Source: Bryobacteraceae bacterium (GTDB lineage: Bacteria > Acidobacteriota > Terriglobia > Bryobacterales > Bryobacteraceae). From it: DNA of 64,000 nucleotides. This document shows positions 26,919-36,698 of the stretch, one piece after another. The notes beneath the pieces were generated by a model. The model saw only the letters and a program-made list of their open reading frames with translations, was not told the origin of the DNA and searched no databases. A program made the position numbers and the translations under genes. Each line of letters opens with the position of its first letter. Position 1 is the stretch's first letter. Where the stretch lies: assembly GCA_026002855.1 (NCBI GenBank), contig BPGD01000001.1:2426001-2490000 (forward strand), in the 5' to 3' direction.

Positions 26919-29552
26919 ATGCGTGCCATCCTGCGGAGCATTGCCAACCGGAAGCCGGCTGGACAGAAAAACGGCAAAGCTGTGGTCATCAACTCGCGCG
27001 CCGGGCTGCTCCAGGGCGATTCGCGCGACGTGCTGGCCGCGCTCCAGACCTCGCCTCAGGGCCTTTCCTCGGAAGAAGCCGCCGCCCGGCTGGAGCAGTA
27101 CGGGCCGAACACGGCGGTACGCCAGGAGACCACCCGGTGGTGGACCCACCTGCTGCGGGCTTTCAATAACGCTTTCATCCTCCTGCTGCTGGCGCTCGCC
27201 GCTGTCGCAGCTCTGACGCAGGACTACGAGGCGGCGGTGATCATCTCTGCCATGGTGCTGGTCAGCGCCGTGCTCCGCTTCACGCAGGAGTACCGTTCGA
27301 ACGTGGCAGCCGAGAAACTGCGCGAGCTCGTCGAGACCACCGCCACGGTGACCCGCGACGGCGTCCGGCGCGAGGTGCCGGTGGAAGAAATCGTCCCGGG
27401 CGACATCGTGCATCTGTCGGCGGGCGACATGATTCCTGCCGACCTGCGGCTCGTGACGGCCAAGGACCTGTTCGTCAGCCAGGCGGCCCTCACCGGCGAA
27501 TCGCTGCCGGTGGAGAAGTTCGCCAATGGAGAAACGCGCGAGGCCGGCAACCTGCTGGAGGACCCGCGGCTTTGTTTCATGGGATCGAACGTAATCAGCG
27601 GCACCGGCACCGGCGTCGCGGTGGCCACGGGCGCACAGACCTACTTCGGCGCGCTCGCCCGACAGGTGACCGGCCATCCGGTGGAGACGGAATTCGACCG
27701 CGGCATCAGCCGCATCAGCCGCCTGCTGATCCGCTTCACGCTGATCATGGTTCCCGTGGTCTTTTTCCTGAACGGGCTCACCAAGGGCGACTGGACGCAA
27801 TCCTTCTTCTTCGCGCTCTCCGTGGCCGTCGGCCTGACGCCGGAGATGCTGCCGATGATCGTCACGGCAAACCTGGCCCGCGGCGCCGTCAACATGTCGC
27901 GCCGGAAAGTGATCGTCAAACGCCTTCCTTCCATTCAGGACTTCGGCGCGATGACCGTGCTGTGCTCGGACAAGACGGGCACGCTGACGCTCGGCCGCGT
28001 CATCCTGGAACGGCACCTCGATGTCCTGGGGCGCGAGTCCGAAAAGGTCCTGCAACTGGCCTATCTCAACAGCTACTATCAAACCGGACTCAAGAGCCTG
28101 CTGGACGCCGCCGTTCTCCAGCACGCCGAGCTCGAAAAGGGCCTGCGCGTGGCCACCGATTACCGTCTGGTGGACGAAATCCCCTTCGATTTCTCCCGGC
28201 GGCGCATGTCGGTCTGCGTGGAGACGGAAAAGCGCGAAGAGCTGCTCATCACCAAGGGTGCCGTGGAAGAGGTGATGGCCGCCTGCCGGTGGATGGAGAT
28301 TGACCGAAAGCCGCAGCCGCTGGACGCAGAAGCGCGGCAGCGGGCCCTCGGGCTGGTGCGGGGGCTCGGCGAGGAGGGCTTCCGCGTGATTGCCGTCGCC
28401 TTCCGGCGGTTTCCGCTTGGCCGCCGGCATTACAGCCAGGCCGACGAGGCCGAAATGACGCTGGCAGGATTCATGGCGTTTCTGGACCCGCCCAAAGACT
28501 CCGCCGCCCCGGCACTCAAGGCCCTGCGGGACCACGGGGTCGAAGTCAAGGTGGTGACCGGCGACAACGAGCTCGTGGCAAGGCGTGTCTGCCATGAGGT
28601 GGGCCTTGCCGTCGACACGGTGCTCCATGGACACGAAATTGACGCGATGAGCGATGCCGAACTCGCCGTCGCGGTCAGGCATGCAACTCTGTTTGCCAAG
28701 GTCTCGCCGCTGGCTAAGGCGCGCATCGTGCGCGCGCTCCAGGCGTCCGGCGAGGTCGTCGGATTTCTCGGCGACGGCATCAATGACGCCCCGGCGCTGA
28801 AACAGGCCGACGTGGGAATTTCGGTGAATACGGCAGTCGATATTGCCCGGGAATCGGCCGATCTCATTCTGCTCGAAAAGAGCCTGCTCGTCCTTGAAGA
28901 AGGCATCGTGGAGGGCCGGCGGACGTTTGGAAACATCGTCAAATATATCCGGATGGGCACGAGTTCGAACTTCGGCAACATGTTCAGCGTGCTCGGGGCC
29001 AGCGCGTGGCTGCCATTCCTGCCCATGCTACCGCTTCAGCTCCTTGTCCAGAACCTGCTTTACGACCTGTCGCAGACCGGTATCCCCTTCGACGATGTGG
29101 ACGAGGATTACCTGAAGGCTCCGCGCCGCTGGGAAGCGGGTGCCATCGCCCGGTTCATGCTGTTCCTCGGACCGGTGTCTTCCCTTTTTGATTACGCCAC
29201 ATTCCTGCTGATGTGGTTTGTTTTTCATGCCAACTCGCCCGAAAAGCAGTCTCTTTTCCAGTCCGCATGGTTCGTGGAGGGCCTCCTTTCTCAGACACTC
29301 ATCGTCCATGTCATTCGCACGCGGAAGCTGCCTTTCGTGGAAAGCCGCGCCTCCTTCGTGCTGATGGTCACCACCCTGGCTGTCATGGTGGCGGGTCTCG
29401 TCATTCCCTTCACGCGCCTGGGCGCAAGCCTCAACATGCGGCCTCTGCCCGGAGCGTATTTCCCCTGGCTGCTGCTGATTCTGGCGGCCTACGGCGGCCT
29501 GGCTCAGCTCGTGAAGCACTGGTACGACCGGCGCTTCGGCTACTACCGCTGA
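26919..29552 (+). CDS. mgtA: Mg2+-importing P-type ATPase (MgtA/MgtB, type IIIB)
   Basis: Inner-membrane P-type ATPase of 877 residues, normal for MgtA. The ATG at 26919 follows AAAGGAGAAAGAGCCG. Visible in order: a cytoplasmic N-terminus with the cation-ATPase N domain (GLSSEEAAARLEQYGPNTAV), two helices, the actuator loop with LTGESLPVEK, the phosphorylation site Asp351 in LCSDKTGTLTLG, the hinge motif GDGINDAPALKQADVGISVN near residue 619, and C-terminal helices. The MgtA-type CLD-like feature ADLILLEKSLLVLEEG is present. It is expected to bring Mg2+ into the cytoplasm during limitation. A long leader suggests post-transcriptional control. The next gene starts 88 bases after the stop, with its own ribosome-binding site. 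Confidence 0.92.
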   Translation: MRAILRSIANRKPAGQKNGKAVVINSRAGLLQGDSRDVLAALQTSPQGLSSEEAAARLEQYGPNTAVRQETTRWWTHLLRAFNNAFILLLLALAAVAALTQDYEAAVIISAMVLVSAVLRFTQEYRSNVAAEKLRELVETTATVTRDGVRREVPVEEIVPGDIVHLSAGDMIPADLRLVTAKDLFVSQAALTGESLPVEKFANGETREAGNLLEDPRLCFMGSNVISGTGTGVAVATGAQTYFGALARQVTGHPVETEFDRGISRISRLLIRFTLIMVPVVFFLNGLTKGDWTQSFFFALSVAVGLTPEMLPMIVTANLARGAVNMSRRKVIVKRLPSIQDFGAMTVLCSDKTGTLTLGRVILERHLDVLGRESEKVLQLAYLNSYYQTGLKSLLDAAVLQHAELEKGLRVATDYRLVDEIPFDFSRRRMSVCVETEKREELLITKGAVEEVMAACRWMEIDRKPQPLDAEARQRALGLVRGLGEEGFRVIAVAFRRFPLGRRHYSQADEAEMTLAGFMAFLDPPKDSAAPALKALRDHGVEVKVVTGDNELVARRVCHEVGLAVDTVLHGHEIDAMSDAELAVAVRHATLFAKVSPLAKARIVRALQASGEVVGFLGDGINDAPALKQADVGISVNTAVDIARESADLILLEKSLLVLEEGIVEGRRTFGNIVKYIRMGTSSNFGNMFSVLGASAWLPFLPMLPLQLLVQNLLYDLSQTGIPFDDVDEDYLKAPRRWEAGAIARFMLFLGPVSSLFDYATFLLMWFVFHANSPEKQSLFQSAWFVEGLLSQTLIVHVIRTRKLPFVESRASFVLMVTTLAVMVAGLVIPFTRLGASLNMRPLPGAYFPWLLLILAAYGGLAQLVKHWYDRRFGYYR

Positions 29553-29640
29553 GCCGTTGGCGGGCCGCTCCGCCGGCGGCGCCCGCGCCTGCACCGCAGC
29601 GCGCTCGTGCACTATCCGTTCAGAGGAGAACCAGAGCGAC

Positions 29641-30377
29641 ATGTCTGAAAGGAACGCCTTCCGCTTCAGCCGGCTGCCCTTCGCGCTGCGGCTGGCGCTG
29701 AGCTGCTTTCTTGCGACTCCCGGGATCGGCTACCTCGTCGAGGGCGTCAACCTGTACCTGACCTACCACCTGACCGACGGAGAACCGGGGCTCTCCGTCG
29801 CCGATCTGCGCCGCGCATTCTACGGCCAGCGGGACAATACCCGGCTGGCCGGCAAAATCGATGGCGGCAGCATGGTCCAGTTCCTGCCGCGCCCGGGCGA
29901 CCGGGCGACCGGGAAAAGATCCTCTCCCGGATTCAGGACGGCGCCAGCGAGGAGGGCTACCGTGCCACGGTGACACCCATCCTCCAGGTCAATTGCATCC
30001 GCTGCCACCATCCCGGCGGATTGCAGCGGTTCACCCCGCTCACGTCTTACGTCGAGGTAATGGCGGTCACGCAGATCGAACGCGGCGAGCCCCCGCAGTT
30101 GTGGGCGCGGGTGGCCCACACCCACATCCAGTCGATTGCCCTGATCTTTCTGGCGCTGACGGGCATCTTCTCCCTGACGCAGGTCCCGCGGGCGCTACAA
30201 ACAGCCCTGATTGTGCTCCCGTTCCTTGCGCTGGTGGCCGACTTCGGGTTCCGCTATCTCATCAGGTTCGTGCCCGCGCTGGTCTATGGGATGGCCGCTT
30301 CCGGCGCGCTGATGGGCCTGCTGTTCGCCGTGCTCATTCTCGTGCCGCTGTACGAGATGTGGCTGCGGCGCGATTGA
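29641..30377 (+). pseudogene. Membrane-anchored heme-c protein gene interrupted by an 8-bp tandem duplication
   Basis: Two frames form one gene. The first starts at ATG 29641 (GAGGAGAA about 14 bases upstream) and encodes an N-terminal membrane helix (LALSCFLATPGIGYLVEGVN) and about 90 residues. The second continues at once after the repeat CGGGCGAC x2 (29894-29909) and encodes a CxxCH heme-binding site (NCIRCHHPGG) and three membrane helices, ending at 30377. Removing one 8-base copy restores a single frame of about 243 residues (LPRPGDREKILSRIQDGASE across the join). The restored layout, one helix, a periplasmic heme-c segment and three helices, resembles membrane cytochromes seen beside denitrification genes; a nitric oxide reductase lies 1.3 kb away. 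The duplication may be a true mutation, a reversible slippage site or a sequencing error. Confidence 0.7.
29894..29909 (+). repeat. 8-bp tandem duplication (CGGGCGAC)x2 causing a frameshift
   Basis: Two exact adjacent copies, 29894-29901 and 29902-29909. One copy gives a continuous reading frame through the heme-c protein gene; two copies shift it by +2 and lead to a stop at about 29973. Confidence 0.85.
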
Positions 30378-30383
30378 GCGATC

Positions 30384-30581
30384 TCATCCTCTGTCCGCCC
30401 GGCGGCCTGTATCCTCCGGGCCGGACTCGTTGTCGCGCAGGCGGCCGCGCTCGCGAAGCGCCTTGCGAAGCAGGAACTCGATCTGCGCATTCAGGGAGCG
30501 CAGGTCGTCGTCGGCCCATTTTTTCAGCGCCTCGAGCACTTCCGCATCGATCCGCAAGAGAAACGACCTGCGCTCGGCCAT
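30384..30581 (-). CDS. Ribbon-helix-helix (Arc-type) DNA-binding protein
   Basis: Small protein of 65 residues with the Arc/MetJ fold pattern: an N-terminal strand RRSFLLRID that would pair in a dimer and insert into the major groove, helix 1 (AEVLEALKKWADDDL) and helix 2 (SLNAQIEFLLRKALRER), then a polar tail. It lies 15 bases downstream of the SPFH gene on the same strand. SPFH genes followed by a small Arc-type gene are a recurrent pair in bacteria. It probably represses its own operon; a palindrome over the SPFH promoter -10 box is the obvious candidate operator. Confidence 0.8.
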   Translation of the reverse strand: MAERRSFLLRIDAEVLEALKKWADDDLRSLNAQIEFLLRKALRERGRLRDNESGPEDTGRRADRG

Positions 30582-30596
30582 GTCCCGTCAGCCAGA

Positions 30597-31478
30597 CTAC
30601 TGATAGATGGTGCCCGTGTTGAGCACCGGCTGGGCGGCTGCTTCCCCGCACAGCACGACCAGCAGGTTCTGCACCATCGCCGCGCGCTGCTCGCCATCCA
30701 GCTGCACGACGCCGCGGCGGGCCAGCATCTCCAGCGCCATCTCCACCATGCCCACCGCGCCCTCGACAATCTTCTGCCGGGCCGCAATCACCGCCGCCGC
30801 CTGCTGCCGCCGGAGCATCGCCGCGGCAATCTCGGGAGCGTAGGCCAGGTAGCTGATGCGCGCTTCAAGGACTTCCACCCCGGCCACGGCCAGCCGCTCC
30901 TGGATCTCGTCCTTCAGGCGCGCCGCCACCTCCACCGTGCTGCCGCGCAGGGAGACCTCGTGCTCCTCATGCGCGTCGTACGGATATGCGGTGGCCAGGT
31001 TGCGCACCGCCGCTTCGCTCTGCACGTGCACGTAGTTCTCGTAACTGTCCACCTGGAAGATCGCTTCGGCCGTGTCCACTACCTTCCAGACGACAACCGC
31101 CGCGATCTCGATCGGATTGCCGTCCCGGTCATTCACCTTCATCTTCGACGTCTCAAAATTGCGCACCCGCAGCGAGACCGGCTTCTTCGCGTAAAACGGA
31201 TTCGCAAATCGCAGCCCGGGTTCGCGCACCGTACCGACGTATTTTCCGAACAACGTCAGCACGACACCCTGATTCGGCTGCACCGTGAAAAATCCCGCCC
31301 AGGCGAACACATCCAGGATCAGCACAACCACCCAGAACCCGAGCATCCAGCCCCGCACCACCGCCTCGGCGTGCCTCGCCGTCCAGACCAGTCCAGCGAT
31401 GGCGCCGATCAGGACGACCACGGAAACCAGCAGCACCGGAATTCCATTCCAGGCCTCAATCACTCGCTCCTTCAGCAT
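30597..31478 (-). CDS. SPFH/Band-7 membrane protein
   Basis: Membrane scaffold protein of 293 residues. I chose the ATG at 31478, with GAGGA eight bases upstream; an ATG at 31502 would add MQEDEDIA but lacks a Shine-Dalgarno. Two membrane helices (about 13-37 and 47-67) are followed by the Band-7 domain (QPNQGVVLTLFGKYVGTVRE, FANPFYAKKPVSLRVRNFET, then IQERLAVAGVEVLEARI) and an Ala-rich coiled coil (AAMLRRQQAAAVIAARQKIV). Members organise membrane microdomains or control membrane proteases. It is co-transcribed with the RHH gene and divergent from nitric oxide reductase. Confidence 0.88.
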   Translation of the reverse strand: MLKERVIEAWNGIPVLLVSVVVLIGAIAGLVWTARHAEAVVRGWMLGFWVVVLILDVFAWAGFFTVQPNQGVVLTLFGKYVGTVREPGLRFANPFYAKKPVSLRVRNFETSKMKVNDRDGNPIEIAAVVVWKVVDTAEAIFQVDSYENYVHVQSEAAVRNLATAYPYDAHEEHEVSLRGSTVEVAARLKDEIQERLAVAGVEVLEARISYLAYAPEIAAAMLRRQQAAAVIAARQKIVEGAVGMVEMALEMLARRGVVQLDGEQRAAMVQNLLVVLCGEAAAQPVLNTGTIYQ

Positions 31479-31531
31479 GGCAATATCCTCGTCCTCCTGC
31501 ATTCAGCAGTTGTCCGCTGAGTGCTATTAGA

Positions 31532-31561
31532 GTGATATCACATCGATAGCGATTGTGTCAA
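31532..31561 (-). promoter_or_regulatory. Sigma-70 promoter of the SPFH-RHH operon, with palindromic operator over the -10 box
   Basis: On the minus strand, a perfect TTGACA (31561-31556) is followed after 18 bases by TATCAC (31537-31532). The -10 box lies inside the perfect palindrome GTGATATCAC (31532-31541), and a further ATCGAT palindrome occupies the spacer (31542-31547). Tandem short palindromes are the usual target of RHH repressors, so autoregulation by the downstream RHH protein is plausible. Confidence 0.6.
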
Positions 31562-31587
31562 GAAAAAACCGCCATGTCCGCCCCATG

Positions 31588-31599
31588 TGACTGGAGTCA
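31588..31599. promoter_or_regulatory. Palindrome TGACTGGAGTCA upstream of nitric oxide reductase
   Basis: A 5+2+5 inverted repeat 69 bases before the norB-like start, in the divergent control region. It does not match the FNR/NNR (TTGAT-N4-ATCAA) or NsrR consensus closely; it may bind another regulator. Confidence 0.3.
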
Positions 31600-31667
31600 T
31601 GGAGCGCTCGGGCCCGAAGCGCGAAGCTGAACGTGCCGGGCCCTCGCCCGGAAGGAAAGGAGCAACC

Positions 31668-33884
31668 ATGAGAAAGCTGTGGCTGGCGTTCGGGGCGGTG
31701 ACCGTGGTCTCGTTTGCGATTCTGGGCTGGATCGGCACGCGGATCTATCAGGAGAAGCCGCCGATCCCTGCTGCGGTCGTCACACCGGACGGGACCGTGG
31801 TGATCCGCGGCGAAGACATCAGGGCGGGGCAGAACATCTGGCAGAGCATGGGCGGCATGGAGGTTGGATCCGTGTGGGGGCACGGCAGCTATGTGGCGCC
31901 GGACTGGACGGCGGACTCGCTGCGTCGCGAGCTCGAATTCGTCCTGGACCGCTGGTCCCGCGGCGGCCACGGCAGGCCATTCGCCGAACTGGATGCGGAA
32001 CAGAAGGGCGCTCTCCAGGCGCGGCTTCAGCAGATGTTCCGAACGAACACGTACGATCCGGCCAGCGGCCGGATCGTGATCGACCCCGTGCGCGCCGAGG
32101 CGTTCGCGGCCAACGTGGCTCATTACACGAAGCTGTTTGCCGAAGGAGAACCGGCCTATGCGATCCCGAAGGGCGCGGTGCCGGATCCGGAGCGCGCCCG
32201 GAAGCTGGCGGCGTTTTTCTGGTGGACGGCCTGGTCGGCATCGACCAACCGGCCGGGCGACACGATCTCTTACACGCACAACTGGCCGCATGAGCCGCTG
32301 GTGGGCAACGGGCCGACAGGCGAGAGCGTGATCTGGACGGGCGTCAGCATTCTCATGCTGCTCGGCGGCATCTGCGCGATGATCTGGTGGTACGCGTCCC
32401 AGCCAAAGGAAACGCCCATCGAGCGGCCGGAGGCGGATCCGCTGAGGAAAATCGTGCTCACGCCGTCGCAGCGGGCGACGCTGAAGTACTTCTGGGTGGT
32501 GGCGCTCCTGATTCTGGCGCAGATCGTGCTGGGCGTGGTGACGGCGCACTACGGCGTGGAAGGCAACGCTTTCTACGGAATTCCGCTGGCCAAATGGCTG
32601 CCTTACAGCGTGACGAGGACGTGGCACATCCAGCTCGGCATCTTCTGGATTGCGACCTCATGGCTGGCGGCGGGGCTGTTCATTGGGCCGTTGATCTCGG
32701 GACACGAGCCGAAGCGCCAGGCGCTGGGCGTGAACGTGCTGTTCCTGGCGCTGCTGGTGATCGTCGTCGGGTCGCTGGCGGGCGAGTGGCTGAGCATCCA
32801 TAACCGGCTGACGGACCGGCAGGCGTTTCTGTGGGGCCACCAGGGCTATGAGTATGTGGACCTCGGACGGATGTGGCAGCTCCTGCTGCTGGCGGGCCTG
32901 TTTCTTTGGCTGTTTCTGGTGCTGCGGGCGGTGAAGCCGGCCTTCCGTACGGCGGGCGAGACCCGGCCGCTGCTTACCATCTTTCTGATGAGCGCCGGAG
33001 CGATCGGCCTGTTCTACGGGGCAGGCATCATGTGGGGGCAGCACTCGCACCTGTCGATGGTCGAGTACTGGCGCTGGTGGGTGGTGCATCTGTGGGTGGA
33101 GGGCTTCTTTGAAGTCTTCGCCACGGCGGTCATCGCCTTCTTCTTCGCGCGGCTTGGACTCGTGCGGCCGAAGCTGGCGGCCGAGGCGGCGCTGCTGTCG
33201 GCCACCATCTATCTGGCCGGAGGCATCATTGGCACCTGCCACCATCTCTACTTCACCGGCACTCCGACGGTGGCGCTGGCCTGGGGTTCGGTGTTCAGCG
33301 CACTGGAAGTGGTGCCGCTGACGATGGTGGCTTTCGGCGCGCTGGACGACCTGCGGCGCGGGCGGGCCACCGAGTGGGCGCAGCGCTACCGCTGGCCCAT
33401 TCGTTATTTCGTGGCCGTGGCCTTCTGGAACATGCTCGGCGCCGGGCTGTTTGGCTTCATGATCAACCCTCCGATCGCGCTCTACTACATGCAGGGGCTG
33501 AACACGACCCCCGTCCACGGCCACGCCGCGCTGTTTGGCGTCTATGGCATGCTCGGCATCGGCCTGACGCTCGTCTGCCTGCGCGCCATGGACCGCCAGG
33601 AGGAATGGAACGACCGCCTGATGAAGTTCGCCTTCTGGGCCTTGAACGGCGGCCTGTTCGCGATGACGGTGTTCAGTCTGCTCCCCGTGGGACTCATGCA
33701 GACGTGGGCCAGCGTCAGCCAGAGCTACTGGTACGCGCGCAGCATGGAGTTCCTCCAGACGCCGCTGATGCAGGCGCTGCGCTGGATGCGCGCCCCGGGC
33801 GACACGCTGTTTGCGCTGGGTGCGCTGGCGCTCGTGTGGTTCATGTTGAAGGTCCGCCCGGCGGGCGCGGAGAACCAGAGCTGA
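31668..33884 (+). CDS. norB: Quinol-type nitric oxide reductase (qNor), single subunit
   Basis: Reduces NO to N2O at the cytoplasmic membrane with electrons from the quinol pool. It has 738 residues, the length of single-chain qNor (fused NorC-like and NorB parts). The ATG at 31668 follows GGAAAGGAGCAACC. A first helix (LWLAFGAVTVVSFAILGWIG) is followed by a periplasmic domain of about 190 residues without CxxCH, as in qNor, then about 13 helices of the heme-copper oxidase fold. His ligands are seen in the segments LTDRQAFLWGHQGYEYVDLG, MWGQHSHLSMVEYW and TTPVHGHAALFG, and the Glu residues needed for the non-heme iron are in HLWVEGFFEVF (near residue 474). It may serve denitrification or NO detoxification; no other denitrification enzyme is in the window. 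Confidence 0.93.
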   Translation: MRKLWLAFGAVTVVSFAILGWIGTRIYQEKPPIPAAVVTPDGTVVIRGEDIRAGQNIWQSMGGMEVGSVWGHGSYVAPDWTADSLRRELEFVLDRWSRGGHGRPFAELDAEQKGALQARLQQMFRTNTYDPASGRIVIDPVRAEAFAANVAHYTKLFAEGEPAYAIPKGAVPDPERARKLAAFFWWTAWSASTNRPGDTISYTHNWPHEPLVGNGPTGESVIWTGVSILMLLGGICAMIWWYASQPKETPIERPEADPLRKIVLTPSQRATLKYFWVVALLILAQIVLGVVTAHYGVEGNAFYGIPLAKWLPYSVTRTWHIQLGIFWIATSWLAAGLFIGPLISGHEPKRQALGVNVLFLALLVIVVGSLAGEWLSIHNRLTDRQAFLWGHQGYEYVDLGRMWQLLLLAGLFLWLFLVLRAVKPAFRTAGETRPLLTIFLMSAGAIGLFYGAGIMWGQHSHLSMVEYWRWWVVHLWVEGFFEVFATAVIAFFFARLGLVRPKLAAEAALLSATIYLAGGIIGTCHHLYFTGTPTVALAWGSVFSALEVVPLTMVAFGALDDLRRGRATEWAQRYRWPIRYFVAVAFWNMLGAGLFGFMINPPIALYYMQGLNTTPVHGHAALFGVYGMLGIGLTLVCLRAMDRQEEWNDRLMKFAFWALNGGLFAMTVFSLLPVGLMQTWASVSQSYWYARSMEFLQTPLMQALRWMRAPGDTLFALGALALVWFMLKVRPAGAENQS

Positions 33885-33911
33885 CGGCGCTCCTTCCGGG
33901 CCGCGGCCGGA

Positions 33912-34024
33912 GCTCGCCCGCAGGGCGAGCCGATGAAGCGGACACTGTCGCGCTGTGCGAGTTCCACCTGCGCCCTGTCCGCCTCTTCCCGCGGCCTGCG
34001 GCCGCCTCACTCGCGGCTCTGAAG
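33912..34024. repeat. Dispersed repeat, copy A (hairpin plus GC-rich core)
   Basis: A hairpin GCTCGCCC-GCA-GGGCGAGC (33912-33930) is followed 60 bases later by the core at 33990-34024, which starts CGCGGCCTGCGGCCGC (itself a 6-bp stem-loop). The same layout and a 35-base core with 30 identical positions occur at 51610-51711. It lies between the convergent ends of norB and the AddB-like gene, so it may also terminate transcription. Confidence 0.45.
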
Positions 34025-34064
34025 TCAGAAACGGGCGCCGCCGGCCAGGCCGTCGAAGCCGATC

Positions 34065-36698
34065 TCAGGCCTCGTCCGTGGCGGCCAGTGCCGCGGCGCT
34101 CTCCTGCACGCGGCAGGCGTCGCGGAAACTGCACCACCGGCAAAGATCGGGATCGGCGGGCCGCACGTCGATCCGGCCCTCGAAGATTCGCAGCAGGGCA
34201 TCTTCCGCTGCCCGGCTGGCCGTCTGGATGCGGTCGTCCACCGCGGCGGGACTCGCGGCGCCGTAGAGCTTCACCTCGTTTTTCAGAGAGACCACCCGGA
34301 CCTCCTGCGGGCTGTAGCCCTCCTCCTGGAGGGCGCGCGCATACAGCCCGCCCTGAACGGCCAGGCCCTCTTCCTCCCTCTTGTTGCGGCGATTGGCGGA
34401 ACCGCCGCTTGAATACTTGAAGTCGAACACGAGGCATTCGCCGTTATCGAGAAAATCCACCCGGTCGGCGCGGCCGCGAATCTCCACGCCCAGCAGGGTG
34501 AGCCGCAGTTCCCGCTCCAACTCCACCCTGCCCGCGGGCCGGCTGCACTCGTGACGGGCATACAGTTGCAGATTCCGCTTCATCGCCTCGCGCGCCAGCA
34601 GCGTCTGGTGCGTTTCCGCGAGTCCTTCGCTGCGCATGGCCCGGTCCCAGTTCTCATCGCAGATCTTCGCGATGTCGCCGCCGCGCCGGTGCCATTCTTT
34701 CAGGATTTCGTGAGCCAGGATCCCTTCAAAGAGAGCATCCAGCCGCTCGGCCGGGAACCGGGGAAGCTCCTCGAGTCCGAGCGTGCGCGCCGCAAAGAAC
34801 TGAAACGGGCACTGGAGGAAGGACTCGATGGCCGTGGCCTGCGTCTTCGTGTGCATCTGGCGCAGGGCCGCGAGCACATCGTCCGAGACCAGCGCCGGCG
34901 GTGGCGCCGGGGCCGCCGCGCGCGCCGGCCGCACGGCAAACCGCCGCGCGCGGAACGTCTCCGCGCCTTCCGCTTCCGGCTGGTCGAGCACGAACGCGCG
35001 AAGGATCTCGTCGCCATTTTCGTTCCGCTCCGGCCAGGACAGGTACAGCCTCTGCGTGGCGCGCGTCCGCGCGACTTCGAAGTGAAACACTTCTTCGGCT
35101 TCCCGATCCCTGCTGGTGCGGATGCCGATCCCCTGTTGCGCGAGTGCCTGCCGCAGCGAATCCGGCAGCACCGGGTCCGGCTGGGCGCGACGCGGGAATT
35201 CGCTCTCCACAAGTCCGCAGACGAAGACGACCGGCAGCTCCCACTGCCGCGCCTCCTCGACGTCGAGCAGGTGCACGGCATCGCGGCGTGTGTCCCGGCT
35301 GTAGATGCGCGCTTCGTGGATCCCCGCCTCGACGTGTGGCCAGAATTCCATGAGCGGCACGCGATCGGCGGGGAGCCACTCCGCGGCGGCGCCGGCCAGC
35401 GAGAGGATCTCGCGGAAGGCGGCAGCGCGCATTGCGCAATCCTCGATCTCCCCTTCCGTGAGGGCTCGCCCGGCAGGCGGAGGCGCAAGGAGACGGGCGA
35501 GTTCGCCAAGGCGTGCGGACCACTCTTTGGGCGGGAGCTTCAGATCGGGCCAGTCAGCCAGTGGCGCCAGCGCGCGGGCCGCCACAGGCGCAAGGCGCTC
35601 GAGCCTTTCCAGCCCCTGAAACGGCAGGGCCTCCACGGCCCGCGCCCAGACGCCGTCGGCCCGGAGAGCCACCGCGGTGACGGCCACCGGTGTGCGGAGC
35701 AGCTCCAGGGTCGCCTCGCCGTCCCAGCCGCTGCGCACCGCTTCCACGAAGCGCCGCACCAGCAGACACGCCGGCTCGCGGCGCAGCGAGCGGCCGAAAT
35801 ACGCGCGCGTCGGCACGCCGGCGCGGAACAGGGCGCGCTCGAAGCGTCCGAGATATTCCTCCTCGTTGCGAAGCACGACGCCCATCTCGCGCCAGGGGCG
35901 GCCCGCTTCATGCTCTTCCAGAAGCCGCAGGACCACTTCTTCCACCTCATGCTCGCGCGAGGTGGCGCGGATCAGCGCCGTCCGCGGCCGCGGCCTGCAC
36001 GCGGCGAGCGTCTCCACACGCGCGCCGCTACGGCGGAAGCGCTCCACCAGCGGCGCCGCGCCCGCCCACTCCGGCAGCGTCACCGTCACGCGCGCCTGTT
36101 TCGCCAGAGCAAGGACGAACTCGGCCTCGACCGGCGAAAATCGAAAGAAGCCATCCAGCCAGACAGCGGCAAACGGCGCGCTCCCGCCGGCGGCGCGCCG
36201 CGCGGCCGCGGTCAGCGCCTGCGCGCGCAGCCGCAGACCGCCCTGCTCCAGCCACTCTTCAACGGCACGGTAGGCGGCCACAAGATCAGGATCCGGCCGG
36301 GCGCCCAGGCCAGCGAGCGACTCCAGTTGCAGCGCGCCGACGCCGGCGCCAGACAGCTCTTCAAATGCCGATGCCAGCGCCGCCGGCAGCCCGGGGCTGC
36401 CGCGCAGGGAAGGGAACAGCCGCGGATGGGCCTCCAGCGCCAGCCCGGTGATCAGGGCAAGTTCCGGCGCGCTGGCCACGCGGACCTCCGGCAGGAGACC
36501 GTGAAGGAGTCCGGCCAGCGTGTTGATCCACGAGGGCGGCACATGGCGGCCCTGCCGCGCCAGTTCATGGCGAAGGTGTTCGGCCATGGTCGCCGTAGGC
36601 ACCACCAGACGGACATTTTCCGTGCGCGCGGCGGCGGCGAATTCCTCCAGCACGCGGGTCGTCTTGCCGGATCCGGGCGGGCCGAGCAGAACCCTCAT
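34065..36698 (-). CDS. AddB-like helicase-nuclease with PD-(D/E)XK domain and Fe-S cysteines
   Basis: Predicted DNA-repair protein of 877 residues, shorter than AddB of Firmicutes (about 1,160). The ATG at 36698 gives MRVLLGPPGSGKTTRV, with the Walker A motif at residues 6-13. The middle resembles an inactive or partial UvrD-like fold. The C-terminal third holds a PD-(D/E)XK nuclease: HEILKEWHRR, then GRADRVDFLDNGECLVFDFK with the catalytic D-x-K, and a Gln in VQGGLYARAL. One Cys in LQCPFQFFA and three in DLCRWCSFRDACR match the Cys arrangement of the AddB Fe-S staple. No AddA/UvrD partner is in the window. A TACGCT hexamer 6 bases before the start suggests its own promoter. Confidence 0.8.
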   Translation of the reverse strand: MRVLLGPPGSGKTTRVLEEFAAAARTENVRLVVPTATMAEHLRHELARQGRHVPPSWINTLAGLLHGLLPEVRVASAPELALITGLALEAHPRLFPSLRGSPGLPAALASAFEELSGAGVGALQLESLAGLGARPDPDLVAAYRAVEEWLEQGGLRLRAQALTAAARRAAGGSAPFAAVWLDGFFRFSPVEAEFVLALAKQARVTVTLPEWAGAAPLVERFRRSGARVETLAACRPRPRTALIRATSREHEVEEVVLRLLEEHEAGRPWREMGVVLRNEEEYLGRFERALFRAGVPTRAYFGRSLRREPACLLVRRFVEAVRSGWDGEATLELLRTPVAVTAVALRADGVWARAVEALPFQGLERLERLAPVAARALAPLADWPDLKLPPKEWSARLGELARLLAPPPAGRALTEGEIEDCAMRAAAFREILSLAGAAAEWLPADRVPLMEFWPHVEAGIHEARIYSRDTRRDAVHLLDVEEARQWELPVVFVCGLVESEFPRRAQPDPVLPDSLRQALAQQGIGIRTSRDREAEEVFHFEVARTRATQRLYLSWPERNENGDEILRAFVLDQPEAEGAETFRARRFAVRPARAAAPAPPPALVSDDVLAALRQMHTKTQATAIESFLQCPFQFFAARTLGLEELPRFPAERLDALFEGILAHEILKEWHRRGGDIAKICDENWDRAMRSEGLAETHQTLLAREAMKRNLQLYARHECSRPAGRVELERELRLTLLGVEIRGRADRVDFLDNGECLVFDFKYSSGGSANRRNKREEEGLAVQGGLYARALQEEGYSPQEVRVVSLKNEVKLYGAASPAAVDDRIQTASRAAEDALLRIFEGRIDVRPADPDLCRWCSFRDACRVQESAAALAATDEA

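Follow-up and report, generated by a model that had tools for sequence, protein, structure and literature searches.

Comparative genomics points to an autorepressed operon of an SPFH membrane protein and an Arc-like ribbon-helix-helix protein

INTRODUCTION

Bacterial SPFH (stomatin/flotillin-like) proteins are common, and what they sense or organize is mostly obscure. Small ribbon-helix-helix (RHH) proteins are familiar from two settings. The subsites of the phage P22 Arc operator are spaced by 11 bp, and the strand residues of Arc are Q9-N11-R13; in type II toxin–antitoxin operons, RHH proteins serve as antitoxins of the ParD, RelB and FitA kinds. Membrane sequestration of an autorepressor is known from the SdpI–SdpR pair of Bacillus, where SdpR belongs to the ArsR family. 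RHH autorepressors are known, as are Arc-like tandem operators and SPFH proteins. In the portion of the 2009 survey drawn on here (PMC2636767), SPFH proteins are classified by sequence and operon partner and subfamilies 6–12 are without documented members; the words ‘repressor’ and ‘DNA-binding’ are absent from its main text. Among the titles and abstract beginnings listed from the open-licence literature, no SPFH–RHH operon, no TGATATCA/TGATATCATT operator and no SPFH tail of the kind reported below is described. The terms ‘band 7’ and ‘ribbon-helix-helix’ co-occur in PMC3877243, and in PMC8656257 the ribbon-helix-helix mention is a reference to VirC2.

Here we describe an operon in which an SPFH gene is followed by an RHH gene, found in a 64,000-nucleotide stretch of Bryobacteraceae DNA (the window, meaning the whole stretch analysed). 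Its RHH protein belongs to the RHH/Arc sequence family according to Pfam and its best solved relatives, and its operator resembles those of Arc-type repressors in its tandem subsites, which follow one another at the promoter with a spacing of roughly one helical turn. In contrast to P22 Arc, the protein is chromosomal and encoded behind a membrane scaffold gene, the strand residues are mostly A/S/P-F-L/P/A-x-R, and each subsite, TGATATCA, is a full palindrome present in up to three copies. With the SPFH–NfeD proteins (QmcA–YbbJ, YuaG–YuaF and YqfA–YqeZ, as far as the excerpt of PMC2636767 describes them) the SPFH protein shares the SPFH domain, an N-terminal anchor and a long helical C-terminal region; it differs in its two membrane-length helices and in having an RHH protein as partner, NfeD being absent by Pfam from the window neighbours scanned (RHH, norB and a small ORF). 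Judged by position and co-occurrence, the small RHH regulator, the tight operon and the operator over the promoter appear to recall type II toxin–antitoxin operons, from which the locus differs in its partner, a membrane scaffold gene that comes first in the operon. The logic that we propose, a membrane protein that would titrate the repressor of its own operon, is analogous to that of SdpI–SdpR; the players here are an SPFH protein and an Arc-like RHH protein, and sequestration is a proposal.

MATERIALS AND METHODS

The first set of loci comprised the 20 best loci from 41 genomes (19 relatives plus the locus of the window itself) and, from named genomes, the best 80 of 589 relatives; L021–L030 were left out as weak matches belonging to other SPFH proteins. 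Expectation–maximization (EM) was run on 98 upstream regions from this set, L017 and L020 being excluded for broken gene ends. Of 297 evenly drawn Acidobacteriota genomes, 93 carried the SPFH gene at E 1e-40, in 94 places. We read 88 of these, the window included, and left out six contig-edge or fragment places (G167, G176, G253, G308 twice and G332).

The large table holds 304 loci with SPFH, of which 291 are distinct and 285 assessable. One fragment (L017) and five loci whose contigs end before an RHH gene could be seen (L018, L101, L232, L236 and L409) were dropped; L275–L279, L312–L341 and L410 were not entered, as they repeat loci already present, bar a few further Acidobacteriota places. 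Operator counts required at least 100 bp of upstream sequence, which leaves 271 loci with the RHH gene (RHH+) and 10 without it (RHH-).

RESULTS

The SPFH gene (30597..31502, minus strand) encodes a protein of 301 aa counted from the first ATG; homologues suggest that translation in fact begins at the ATG at 31478. Pfam (Band_7, PF01145, 5.1e-27), alignments and an AlphaFold2 model built from 34 sequences (mean pLDDT 85.7) agree on its assignment, and the hallmarks of the superfamily, a Band_7/SPFH domain and a predicted N-terminal membrane anchor, are present. In the model, membrane-length helices at residues 20–44 and 47–68 are followed by the SPFH domain (approximately 71–221), a long helix (223–262) and a short helix (270–285); the tail, residues 290–301, has pLDDT below 50 and is predicted to be disordered. 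The closest solved relatives by sequence are QmcA and HflK, and the fold of the model matches stomatin, HflK/C, prohibitin and QmcA. The codons of the C-terminal tail PVLNTGTIYQ, a putative RHH-docking peptide on grounds of co-occurrence and predicted disorder, occupy 30600..30629 (minus strand). Downstream on the same strand lies the Arc-like RHH gene (30384..30581, 65 aa), the proposed autorepressor, whose product scores 26.6 bits against Pfam RHH_5 (PF07878; cut-off 26) and 24.3 bits against Arc (PF03869; cut-off 20.4). Its closest solved relatives are Arc proteins, with pArc at 3.6e-5. A weak similarity (E 0.051) was also seen to chain G of PDB 9pio, an ‘Arc family DNA-binding protein’ of 79 aa in a solved complex. 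A small ORF on the plus strand (29970-30374), convergent with the RHH gene, carries a CxxCH haem-c motif and a hydrophobic segment and has no Pfam match above cut-off. No RNA element was found at Rfam gathering scores within 29000-34500.

Rechecking of the window letters placed every promoter and palindrome element of the earlier note where it had put them. The promoter of the operon, on the minus strand, consists of a -35 box TTGACA (31556-31561) and a -10 box TATCAC (31532-31537) separated by an 18-bp spacer. The earlier wording, a near-perfect sigma-70 promoter, holds for the -35 box, which matches the consensus at 6/6 positions, and is generous for the -10 box, which matches at only 4/6. 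A consensus promoter scan of the window did not list this promoter because the scanner demanded T at position 6 of the -10 box, and TATCAC is without the final T. The -10 box is contained in the palindrome GTGATATCAC (31532-31541), and ATCGAT is at 31542-31547. The earlier note had recognized this palindrome and overlooked that it is the middle of three TGATATCA copies at 11-bp spacing. The central copy 2 (31533-31540), over the -10 box, is perfect, and the outer two are degenerate: copy 1 (31544-31551; matrix score and letters checked), in the spacer between the -35 and -10 boxes, matches at 5/8 positions, and copy 3 (31522-31529), downstream of the -10 box, at 6/8; copies 2 and 3 are documented by matrix score and by the profile of 273 operators. 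Within the genus of the window (L001–L005) the outer copies resemble GCTA-type arms, one the inverse of the other, that flank the central TGATATCA and would give one larger palindrome.

With at most one mismatch, chance predicts 0.54 occurrences of GTGATATCAC and 0.45 of TGACTNNAGTCA per window, roughly half an occurrence of either palindrome, so that the window alone proves little. The weight lies in comparison. Unseeded EM on the 98 orthologous upstream regions returned TGATATCAAttTGATATCAtTT (27.7 bits) with a log-likelihood of 1972, against 128–142 in six dinucleotide-shuffled sets. This conservation is what marks the palindrome as non-random: by comparison of sequences, it is real and beyond chance. 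The motif reaches at least 15 bits in 97 of the 98 regions, the sole exception being L053, a locus that is also without RHH. The RHH gene lies downstream on the same strand in 97/100 loci of the first set; L018 and L101 end with their contigs, and L053 has none within 2.5 kb nor elsewhere in its genome. Applied to the 64 kb of the window, the EM matrix scores the operator at 21.8–23.9 bits and all other sites at -4.3 or less, so that it is the only site above 0 bits.

The even draw of Acidobacteriota gave the same picture. An operator was found in 87/88 places at 7 bits and in 83/88 at 12 bits, the best downstream control scoring -1.1; the one miss, L208, has just 64 bp upstream. The RHH gene was visible in 85/88 places. 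Two of the misses are contig ends; the third, L180, is on a contig equal in length to that of L067, in which the RHH gene lies 1154 bp further on. When 273 operators were aligned, TGATATCA repeated with an 11-bp period, and the weaker copy 3 stood out without having been selected, the matrix having selected copies 1 and 2. In 71/273 operators a TTGACA-like box (at least 5/6) precedes the TATCAT of copy 2 by 16–18 bp, with a peak at 17 bp, which argues that promoter and operator overlap; the remaining 202, about three quarters, are without a good TTGACA at this distance. Positions 31519-31561 are thus strongly supported by comparison as the operator-promoter of a two-gene operon that would be autoregulated.

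Pattern scans of the 41 and 297 genomes were also read for a regulon beyond the operon, and this idea was rejected: elsewhere, among the matches listed, only scattered weak sites resembling background were seen. With at most two mismatches, the two-copy pattern has a single site in the window's genome, the SPFH–RHH operator, among the matches listed. Tallied by hand among the matches listed, it occurs in 76/93 Acidobacteriota genomes with SPFH and in 69/204 without. Because the pattern is also found in the latter, its position and not its presence carries the argument.

Operator and RHH gene occur together in records labelled Acidobacteriota, Pseudomonadota, Bacteroidota, Gemmatimonadota, Planctomycetota and Verrucomicrobiota, and in plasmid-collection records of Deinococcus, Nonomuraea, Qipengyuania, Parabacteroides, Prevotella, Phocaeicola and Acetoanaerobium. 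Some of the metagenome labels could be mistaken: L064, for example, is titled Bacillota, but the search of its phylum gave the Acidobacteriota set again, with identical E-values. RHH+ Bacillota rest on a single plasmid-collection record, L115. A viral or mobile origin was considered and rejected; relatives were present in 29 plasmid and 7 phage records, and in viral_contigs two scans yielded 5 and 1. Phage-labelled records of Enterococcus and Listeria and a Pseudomonas aeruginosa plasmid record (L116, L117 and L271) contain closely related SPFH genes with no RHH gene, and the phage labels of such records may denote host DNA. In a number of loci (L050, L054, L056, L059, L061, L062, L073, L076, L096, L106, L107, L110 and L416) extra ORFs stand between SPFH and RHH. 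They include small membrane-type proteins, a DUF1648-like protein below the Pfam cut-off in the Planctomycete L106 and, by eye in Bacteroidota, a membrane-type ORF together with a hydrolase-like one. The extra ORFs may also belong to the system. A DUF4177 protein was noted near some SPFH–RHH loci.

In the large table, RHH gene, operator and SPFH tail occur jointly. At 7 bits, the operator was found in 268/271 RHH+ loci and in 0/10 RHH- loci, a cut-off chosen after the data had been seen; the counts are identical at 0.5 bits and become 263/271 and 0/10 at 12 bits. The earlier note had proposed that palindromic sites over the -10 box control the SPFH–RHH operon and are bound by the RHH protein, and had set conservation before such operons as the finding on which this would stand or fall. 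The comparison backs the layout and suggests that the RHH protein probably binds there. The three RHH+ loci that miss the operator are L020, a gene match without its 5' part, and the alphaproteobacterial L118 (Rhizobium) and L267 (Bosea), which have a diverged RHH protein and single or irregular GATATC cores. The tail motif, searched near the SPFH C-terminus as N-x-[GS]-[TSNG]-[LIVMF], an expression likewise written after the data had been seen, is present in 272/272 RHH+ loci and in 0/13 RHH- loci among the 285 assessable. The 13 RHH- rows, which include near-copies (L116 with L117; L405–L407, near-identical), are L053 (a Gemmatimonadota MAG), the Enterococcus-/Listeria-type L116, L117 and L271, Deinococcus radiophilus, Teredinibacter, Pseudomonas amygdali, the Pseudomonadota L379, L384 and L386 and the IMG/VR contigs L405–L407; in plasmid, phage and IMG/VR records, absence refers to the 1.5–2.5 kb seen.

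The loss is concentrated at the end of the protein. Against the 40 lowest-scoring RHH+ proteins, the 13 RHH- proteins have a mean identity to the family consensus of 0.27 versus 0.74 over the last 7 residues, 0.40 versus 0.70 over the preceding 33 and 0.56 versus 0.59 over the SPFH body; with the body nearly alike and the C-terminus relaxed, it is the C-terminal region that changes and not the whole protein. A sister pair with similar SPFH scores illustrates this: L375 has the RHH gene, the tail NAGTLYN and an operator of 25.2, and L379 has none of them. The association also served as a predictor. Six of six operator-bearing Bacteroidota loci in which RHH had not been seen in the first 0.8–1.5 kb proved to have the gene 0.9–2.0 kb downstream and were reassigned from RHH- to RHH+, whereas two of two loci without operator had none within 5 kb. 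Kinship also favoured this outcome, because displaced RHH genes were known from other Bacteroidota (L107 and L110). At the level of whole genomes, the Arc-like RHH family found behind SPFH has no member in the 4/4 RHH- genomes checked and exactly one in each of the 5/5 RHH+ genomes checked, the window's included. On a 96-row tree, four changes are needed for RHH loss, four for the tail and five for the operator. Well-supported branches dictate two of the RHH changes, and in both of these pairs tail and operator change likewise; four RHH- rows are long branches. With so few independent losses, a sign test on independent pairs cannot reach 0.05. In the losses seen, these comparisons suggest that RHH gene, operator and tail are lost together.

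DISCUSSION

We propose that the SPFH–RHH operon is autorepressed and that its repressor docks on the C-terminus of the SPFH protein, an explanation that, taken as a whole, we consider probable. Its most secure component is autorepression: the comparative data make it very likely that the RHH protein represses its own operon at the three-copy operator. Three 8-bp TGATATCA-type palindromes, 11 bp apart, would be occupied by side-by-side dimers of the Arc-like protein along the spacer, across the -10 box and immediately beyond it; RNA polymerase would then be excluded, and the RHH protein would thereby limit its own expression and that of SPFH. Docking through the SPFH C-terminus stands, on the co-occurrence data, at about an even chance. 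The SPFH protein would be a scaffold anchored in the membrane and probably oligomeric. Its disordered tail (P-V-x-N-T-G-T-L-Y-Q), together with the preceding helix, would dock the RHH protein, and the level of free repressor would be set by how much scaffold is present at the membrane or by its state of assembly there. Sequestration at the membrane would lead to derepression; the alternative direction is co-repression, as in toxin–antitoxin pairs. We prefer sequestration because the tail is predicted to be disordered, lies behind the long helices of the scaffold and disappears together with the repressor. The identity of the operator, its place over the promoter, its dependence on the RHH gene and its being the single clear site in the window's genome are supported by comparison; we infer RHH binding and repression, capture of the RHH protein by the SPFH C-terminus and the direction of the effect.

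Could the RHH protein repress the operon without ever touching SPFH? The C-terminal change in RHH- proteins would then be ordinary divergence after a change of function. We regard this as rather unlikely. It accords with the RHH- SPFH proteins being on average more diverged (179–434 bits) and with the small number of independent RHH- lineages. However, RHH+ proteins that score equally low retain the tail (L118 at 288, L267 at 289 and L115 at 347 bits), the SPFH body is conserved equally in both groups, and a tail that is predicted to be disordered yet kept across phyla suggests a partner.

A toxin–antitoxin-like pair, in which an antitoxin-type RHH protein neutralizes SPFH and SPFH acts as co-repressor through conditional cooperativity, would explain the bicistronic layout, the RHH fold and the tandem operator over the promoter, and one RHH homologue is indeed annotated as a HicB-family antitoxin. 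We nevertheless find it very unlikely: the partner is a stomatin/HflK-type scaffold and no small nuclease, neither SPFH nor RHH has a PADLOC match to a defence system, and SPFH relatives without RHH exist, which disfavours strong SPFH toxicity.

The divergent neighbour of the operon is norB, a quinol-type nitric oxide reductase gene (31668..33884, plus strand; Pfam NorB_cytochrome_c-like 1.6e-67 and COX1 9.7e-61), and the earlier note had suggested a nitric oxide- or stress-linked circuit that would place operator, norB-side palindrome, qNor and the haem-c gene under common control. In favour of such a circuit, qNor is divergent from SPFH in 5/5 loci of the same genus and in one further genus (L239). 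Yet this adjacency was seen in those two genera only. Of the 61 family genomes, 31 carry norB at E 1e-100, and SPFH lies within the flank of approximately 1.5 kb of only 3/30 family norB loci. The norB-side palindrome TGTGACTGGAGTCATG (31586..31601, with TGACTGGAGTCA at 31588-31599) differs from the RHH operator. It belongs to what we take to be a CRP/FNR-type site: TGTGAC-N4-GTCACA matches at 10/12 positions or better in 16/21 norB promoters (those of the first 21 loci, L237–L257), against 2/1050 shuffles, and most of the norB promoters that bear it have no SPFH alongside, only 3 being beside SPFH. No tie to the haem-c ORF was found in the window. There is thus neither a conserved norB linkage nor a common operator, and joint control is highly improbable; the rarity of the adjacency and the separate norB palindrome likewise lead us to reject a nitric oxide link as a general feature. 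Since the CRP/FNR-like palindrome recurs at norB promoters and SPFH adjacency is so rare, the two palindromes look like two neighbouring, separate switches, and the norB-side one is a candidate nitric oxide-responsive site of norB, outside the SPFH–RHH circuit.

That an unlinked regulator binds TGATATCA and the RHH gene is a mere passenger is scarcely credible, as presence and loss of the operator track the RHH gene and an RHH strand residue covaries with the base before the second copy (mutual information 0.32 versus 0.05 shuffled; 263 loci, confounded by kinship).

What would an autorepressed operon with a docking scaffold mean for the SPFH family? A cognate repressor with a defined operator would provide a reporter for these proteins, and because changes in the scaffold should alter the promoter, direct screens for the signal would become possible. 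The operator matrix has already helped to find the displaced RHH genes, and could replace database labels of RHH proteins such as ‘HicB family antitoxin’ and ‘PTS ascorbate transporter subunit IIC’. More tentatively, at somewhat less than an even chance, we envisage a widespread one-operon sensor of membrane state, in which the C-terminal helix and N-T-G-T-L-Y-Q tail of SPFH would capture its own Arc-like repressor and assembly of the scaffold at the membrane would directly set transcription from the three-copy 11-bp operator. If this is true, these proteins would constitute an SPFH family that carries its own transcriptional readout, of which we know no earlier case.
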